Below are positions 1,429 through 1,850 of a stretch of 33,417 nucleotides of DNA, in pieces (the first letter of the stretch is position 1; each line of letters begins with the position of its first letter). The notes under the pieces were generated by a model, which saw only the letters and a list, made by a program, of their open reading frames with translations, did no database searches and was not told where the DNA came from. Source of the stretch: Bacteroidales bacterium (GTDB lineage: Bacteria > Bacteroidota > Bacteroidia > Bacteroidales > UBA932); assembly GCA_030695305.1 (NCBI GenBank), contig JAUYTB010000341.1:1-33417 (forward strand). The letters run 5' to 3'. Position numbers and translations under genes: made by a program.

Positions 1429-1472
1429 CTTTGCCATTGTTTGAGGTAACTCAATAATATACAAATACTTAC

Positions 1473-1506
1473 AAACGCAGTTTTCCAAATTTGGAAAACT
1501 GCGTTT
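1473..1506 (+). terminator. Perfect 34-bp palindrome downstream of lepA, probable terminator
   Basis: AAACGCAGTTTTCCAAA / TTTGGAAAACTGCGTTT, directly read, followed by TTATAT; 44 bp after the lepA stop. Confidence 0.6.
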
Positions 1507-1569
1507 TATATCTATCTAATTAACTAACAGATACATCAAACTCTGCCAAAGACCCTTCTTCATTCATTA

Positions 1570-1771
1570 CCTTAGCATATCTCACAGCAGGAACGCCAAT
1601 CTCCCCACGGGCTGTAAATAAACCCTTAGCACAAGTAGGGCAAACTCAGCCGCAAGTAGCGAACTTGTGAGCGGATGAGGATGGACGTTGCCCGTTGTGC
1701 TAAGGGGTTTATAAGCCCGTAACGTTTAGGAAAAGCGTTCCTGCTGTGAGAATCCACAATTGCATGCAAGG
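1570..1771. repeat. Long imperfect inverted repeat (~200 bp), candidate non-autonomous mobile element or structured RNA
   Basis: Outer arms CTCACAGCAGGAACGC (1581-1596) / GCGTTCCTGCTGTGAG (1735-1750) are exact complements. Inner arms are ACGGGCT/AGCCCGT, ATAAACCCTTAGCACAA/TTGTGCTAAGGGGTTTAT (one bulge) and GGGCAA/TTGCCC. Apical stem is CTCAgCCGCAAGT/ACTTGtgaGCGGaTGAG. Confidence 0.75.
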
Positions 1772-1799
1772 TCCACAACCCTTGCCAAGGTCCCCCCCC

Positions 1800-1833
1800 A
1801 AAAAAAAAGCTGCCCTATGGGCAGCCTTTTTTT
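1800..1833 (-). terminator. Bidirectional intrinsic terminator serving the minus-strand TPR lipoprotein gene
   Basis: A9-GCTGCCC-TAT-GGGCAGC-C-T7; ends 18 bp from the stop of the gene at 1851. Confidence 0.88.
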
Positions 1834-1850
1834 AAGTTATGAAAGAGTGG

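Follow-up and report, generated by a model that had tools for sequence, protein, structure and literature searches.

The window analyzed here is a stretch of 33,417 nucleotides, contig C358 of a 2.72-Mb Bacteroidales draft genome (G000; 367 contigs, 88.6% complete), in which the gap between lepA and a convergent gene for a TPR lipoprotein holds a long palindrome together with further repeats (Table 1). The lepA stop codon occupies positions 1426 to 1428, and a second palindromic element, element B, begins at the very next base, 1429. All stems named in an earlier note on this DNA, which placed the palindrome at 1570 to 1771, are present, and a repeat search recovers perfect 17-bp arms (1580 to 1596 and 1735 to 1751) and a second arm pair (1620 to 1634 and 1695 to 1709; 15 bp, 93%). 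The RNA fold of 1540 to 1800 reaches -100.4 kcal/mol (z, -6.4), which none of 200 shuffles equals, and the DNA fold of 1575 to 1757 gives a z of -9.8, so that the palindrome itself is real. Its proposed end at 1771 needs revision, as the sequence continues into a 22-bp repeat, REP-A. The two flanking hairpins had both been described as separate from the palindrome; this holds for the one on the right, an ordinary terminator, while the one at 1473 to 1506 is the center of element B and not an independent terminator.

Table 1. Features of the lepA-TPR lipoprotein gap, in window positions.
Feature	Positions	Strand	Remarks
Element B, second repeated palindromic element (CTTTGCCATTGTTTGAGG ... CATCAAACTCTGCCAAAG)	1429..1551	.	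Central hairpin 1473-1506; ends matched at 1429 (-) and 1534 (+)
Left arm, type La half-unit	1552..1637	+	Strict pairing from 1580; repeats 1580-1596 and 1620-1634; left half-units occur separately in arrays
Conserved tip, GGGCA..CTCAGCC-[apical hairpin]-GATGAG-GATGGACG-TTGCCC	1638..1693	+	Covariance model R1, 81.6 bits; kept across genus
Right arm, type Ra half-unit	1694..1751	+	Repeats 1695-1709 and 1735-1751; right half-units occur separately in arrays
REP-A (ACCTTGGCAAGGGTTGTGGACC on - strand), right end of the putative mobile unit	1770..1791	-	Exact match 1771-1790
Ordinary terminator hairpin of the lepA/convergent TPR-lipoprotein gene gap, outside the element	1800..1834	.	Similar hairpin in relatives' gaps

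Written in symbols (A, REP-A; B, element B; L and R, left and right half-units of type a, b, or c; T, tip), the window copy reads [B B] La T Ra <A], a simple hairpin with REP-A on its right, no REP-A on its left, and B on the lepA side. The exact REP-A match is the only one in the window, with no left partner, and because the hairpin carries the right REP-A alone it is an incomplete derivative and not a complete REPIN. Copies with B on the left, REP-A on the right, and no left REP-A are also seen on contigs C54, C63, C226, and C308 of G000, besides that starting at 1429 of the window; either the left REP-A has repeatedly been lost, or B-hairpin-A chimeras can move as a unit.

BLASTN of 1540 to 1800 against G000 detects copies on dozens of further contigs, with 80 to 97% identity for the fuller ones, as well as separate left and right hairpin halves. 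A 35-nt core occurs 39 times at up to three mismatches, and its reversed control gives no match in the same search; a relaxed search of the retrieved loci yields 40 hairpin cores. REP-A adjoins the right side of 30 of these at set distances (90 to 94 nt from the core in simple copies, larger with a second right half), which indicates that hairpin and REP-A have spread together in this genome. Five of the 10 cores without a right REP-A lie near contig ends. By rough open reading frame (ORF) calls, the copies with usable flanks are intergenic, and the neighboring genes in the classified cases are convergent (8), co-directed (8), or divergent (2). The earlier note regarded this as the least explained DNA in the window and offered, as one option, a MITE- or REP-like non-autonomous element, which would gain support from numerous copies dispersed between genes and sharing conserved ends. 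This option is borne out by the roughly 40 cores, 30 of them with the same right-hand repeat and mostly in convergent or co-directed gene gaps, and the palindrome is no lone oddity. Plasmid and phage collections gave no match to the element, and viral contigs contained no exact 28-base stretch of it.

REP-A has 190 matches in G000, and its reversed control has none. Among the first 100 matches listed, close opposed pairs face inward in 14 cases and outward in none, and 19 further close pairs are in tandem. The shortest doublets measure 63 to 83 bp and lack the long hairpin. One minimal doublet (C181:5938-6015) is located some 110 bp upstream of an ORF that starts at C181:6128 and runs for 195 aa to the contig end, which cuts the gene and leaves flanking REP-A visible on the upstream side only. 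This ORF is the sole match to Y1_Tnp (Pfam; E, 1.2e-11) found in G000 and matches the NCBIfam REP-associated tyrosine transposase (RAYT) below its cut-off. Across 25 genomes of the genus, at up to two mismatches, REP-A occurs 190 times in G000, three times each in G015 and G016, and in none of the other 22; the closest relatives of the C181 RAYT are likewise found in G015 and G016 (66% identity; next best, 59 to 60%). The strongest indication that the C181 protein may serve REP-A is this co-occurrence. The repeat carries GTGG (…GGGTTGTGGACC, with TTGCATGCAA beyond in some copies), a candidate for the 5′ GT[AG]G tag that adjoins the short hairpin of a REP, and no GTAG. By eye we see no target-site duplication, as expected of a classical MITE derived from a DDE transposon, around the minimal doublets on C108, C162, C181, and C244. 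The bases AAATGAG precede several REP-A copies (L114, on G000 contig C244; L116, on C233), possibly as a target preference or an unrecognized part of the element. In addition, BIME-like arrays of REP-A in one orientation, with units often 58 to 74 bp apart, are present on G000 contigs C27, C150, C208, C229, and C233.

In six relatives, the lepA-TPR gap measures 61 to 98 bp and contains just a terminator hairpin, without the element. Two others, G008 and G016, have a related hairpin in the gap, in opposite orientation and with different flanks, and for that reason their insertion appears to be separate from the one in G000.

Related copies of the hairpin are found in G008, G015, and G016. A tip of about 56 nt is conserved across the genus, the arm sequences differ by species and have been swapped wholesale between species, and despite these differences the two arms of almost every copy are complementary. 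When four arm types are aligned, double changes affect 14 of 45 pairs. Double-change cells number 39 versus 12.0 in shuffles (none of 500 as high), and 97% of cells pair versus 33 to 46% in slid controls, a comparison biased in favor of the structure over its slid versions, as this alignment was also the source of the structure. Searched with a covariance model of just the tip, G000 yields 37 matches, the single-contig genome G009 yields 22, G010 yields 10, and other genomes yield fewer. With stricter filters, a tip search across the order (393 genomes) gave matches in the element's own genus only; two other genera of the family hold 9 and 13 weaker matches, and those inspected in G169 carry complementary arms. 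Matches from a pattern scan of public genomes in unrelated phyla were rejected, having no matching stem and a number near chance expectation. On contig C1 of G009, 21 of the 22 tip matches fall within 1.97 to 2.40 Mb or 0.08 to 0.49 Mb, and one falls in the remaining half, so that the matches are strongly clustered. Orthologous tip hairpins occupy the same site in G014 (C29:35.9-36.1k) and G001 (C16:184.0k; L096, L099), and by eye these show compensatory arm changes, e.g., AAACG/TGTTT versus AACCG/CGGTT.

Several loci in G000 contain mirrored halves (La Lb T Rb Ra), with one hairpin sitting inside another. The full orders are [A> La Lb T Rb Ra <A] on C349, [A> [B B] La Lb T Rb Ra <A] on C109, and La Lb La Lb T Rb Ra on C90. 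The nested joints fall at the tip-loop position, between CTCAGCC and GAGGATGG; right-half repeats with the same joint occur in G008, G009, G014, G016, and G017, and tandem tip units occur in G010. We infer that the tip is a preferred site of insertion or recombination. The numbers of left and right half-units often differ, suggesting that some were later deleted.

Element B has solo and linked copies elsewhere in G000. In G015, a RAYT gene has a B-type copy upstream of it, and B-related ends of greater divergence lie beside RAYT genes in G008, G009, and G016; judging from this adjacency, B is probably the repeat of another RAYT or TIRYT. Another RAYT of G015 is flanked by a third family, D (CTCAGAGCTGTAGTGCCAAA), which also occurs next to tip hairpins in three genomes, G008, G015, and G016 (L122, G015:C1:1991777; L091, G008:C165). 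Two RAYTs of G009 adjoin repeats of their own, TTAGAAAAATCAGTGCCACTAA and TACCTCAAACTGCGCCAAAGTG (L246, G009:C1:1714k; L247, G009:C1:426k), and some of the tip hairpins of that genome adjoin these same repeats. For most tip hairpins of G008, G009, G015, and G016, no RAYT repeat is recognized within 330 bp. No tip adjoins a RAYT gene, the nearest being about 2.2 kb away, on C181.

We consider it probable that the hairpin family is a compound, REPIN-like or REPIN-derived non-autonomous mobile palindrome, associated with a RAYT, in an uncultured Bacteroidales genus. Several of the traits by which REPINs are recognized are found here: a high extragenic copy number (the 190 REP-A matches), overrepresented inward-facing doublets (14:0 among the first 100 listed), a RAYT gene flanked by the same REP (at C181, on its upstream side), and a hairpin spacer with compensatory changes (14 of 45 pairs; 39 cells versus 12.0 when shuffled). 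The complete unit would be a long hairpin, its tip conserved, between two opposed REP-A repeats, of which the window keeps the right one only, with a second RAYT-type hairpin (B) in place of the left end. The HUH/Y1 transposase encoded on C181, beside the minimal REP-A pair, would probably recognize the REP-A ends and may copy or move the entire hairpin, as a single DNA strand, into intergenic sites. Copying from arm to arm at the DNA level, rather than selection on an RNA, would keep the palindrome symmetrical, and the exposed tip would be a preferred place for further insertion or recombination, giving rise to Russian-doll arrays. This reading is supported by the 39 to 40 cores, the REP-A junction in 30 of 40, the inward pairs, the C181 doublet, the co-occurrence of REP-A with RAYTs at 66% identity, and the empty sites, as well as by the covariation, the nested order, the few copies between divergent genes, and the equal frequencies of G:U and A:C considered below. 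Against it count the window copy, which lacks a left REP-A, the truncation of the RAYT gene by the contig end, the lack of tips adjoining RAYT genes apart from the one about 2.2 kb away on C181, and the majority of tips in G008, G009, G015, and G016, which have no recognized RAYT repeat within 330 bp and show that the hairpin can evidently exist and multiply without REP-A.

The main rival to the RAYT/REPIN reading holds that the tip hairpin is mobile by itself, moved by some tip-recognizing enzyme, and that REP-A and B are mere neighbors that it inserted into or that inserted into it. The constancy of the tip within the genus while arms and flanking repeats vary, the nested joints at the tip in several species, and the tips outside G000, most of which lack a recognized RAYT repeat nearby, all speak for such a mover. 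We nevertheless judge it unlikely, given that 30 of the 40 G000 copies share the REP-A junction, so that there the hairpin moves with REP-A, and that no associated enzyme was found. A related idea, which seems to us rather doubtful, takes the approximately 56-nt tip to be the core of a self-nesting element distinct from REPs: an enzyme would read the tip in extruded single-stranded DNA and place new copies into existing tip loops, the arms would be replaceable, and the element would ride on the RAYT/REP system of each species.

Far less probable is that the hairpins are structured noncoding RNAs, or transcribed 3′ hairpins that stabilize or terminate mRNAs, under selection as RNA. The strong fold with its compensatory changes, the conserved tip with conserved unpaired bases, the location 3′ of genes, and the few orthologous copies with changed but still paired arms (G001 and G014) would all suit this explanation. 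However, a selected RNA should tolerate G:U more than A:C, and the distinct events number 7 versus 9 in G000 and 19 versus 21 in G009, small samples of related copies that make an argument and not a proof. Paired positions in G009 are nearly as variable as unpaired ones (0.186 versus 0.208), with 25 distinct compensatory changes, and this, together with the similar G:U and A:C counts, fits DNA-level copying of one arm from the other. A search of Rfam gave no match at the gathering threshold and only chance-level matches at E values up to 10. The copies are mostly dispersed and not syntenic, with the same site occupied or empty among genomes, and the wholesale arm swaps between species likewise argue against an RNA. 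The structured-RNA option of the earlier note is thus disfavored; the covariation that was to support it is present but not specific to RNA, since DNA processes that keep the symmetry of palindromes explain it equally well. Compensatory changes are also known in the REPIN spacers of Pseudomonas (PMC3116915). Finally, a chance palindrome or an assembly artifact can practically be dismissed: many copies do lie at contig ends, as repeats in draft assemblies do, but none of the 200 shuffles folds as well, relatives are present in the single-contig genomes G009 and G010, and matching sites in the independent MAGs G008, G015, and G016 refute it.

As a mobile palindrome associated with a RAYT, the family resembles REPINs (PMC3116915, PMC6006769) in being high-copy and extragenic, with inward REP doublets around a hairpin spacer that shows compensatory changes, a single REP type for each transposase, a doublet adjoining the transposase gene, and ordered clusters. 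It differs in size, known REPIN spacing being of the order of 71 to 110 bp and many copies here having an insert of approximately 200 to 580 bp, in an insert with a genus-conserved tip, exchangeable arms, and mirrored nested copies, and in a REP-A without an obvious GTAG tag. In the TIRYT/TIRtron families (PMC3733652), RAYT-like genes lie between long terminal inverted repeats that also have dispersed copies. Their Y1 transposase genes of about 270 to 300 aa, flanking hairpin-forming repeats, and dispersed copies are like what we observe, and, judged by gene size and flanking repeats, the pattern fits elements B and D as well as the RAYTs of G008, G009, and G015; nested tip hairpins are not described for these families (PMC3733652). 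The BrickBuilt MITE of Porphyromonas gingivalis (PMC4596501) is likewise an intergenic Bacteroidales element with small inverted-repeat ends, about 20 copies, and internal repeated units, but, compared by description only, these are 23-nt direct tandem repeats and not mirrored half-hairpins around one tip. We found no description of this hairpin family in the open-access literature on Bacteroidales REPs, nested palindromes, and REPINs. What is new is the nesting and the conserved tip with exchangeable arms, which are absent from the REPIN descriptions found.

RAYTs and REPINs have so far been studied mainly in Proteobacteria, and for a Bacteroidetes RAYT subclass, flanking "atypical secondary structures" have been noted (PMC6006769). 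Here, a single Bacteroidales genus offers species-specific REP families together with candidate cognate RAYTs, and also a natural series of hairpins in which one tip is conserved, arms have been exchanged, and copies are nested. Should the proposed reading be true, RAYT recognition outside the GTAG type would become testable, as would the spread and lasting symmetry of long palindromes in bacterial genomes.
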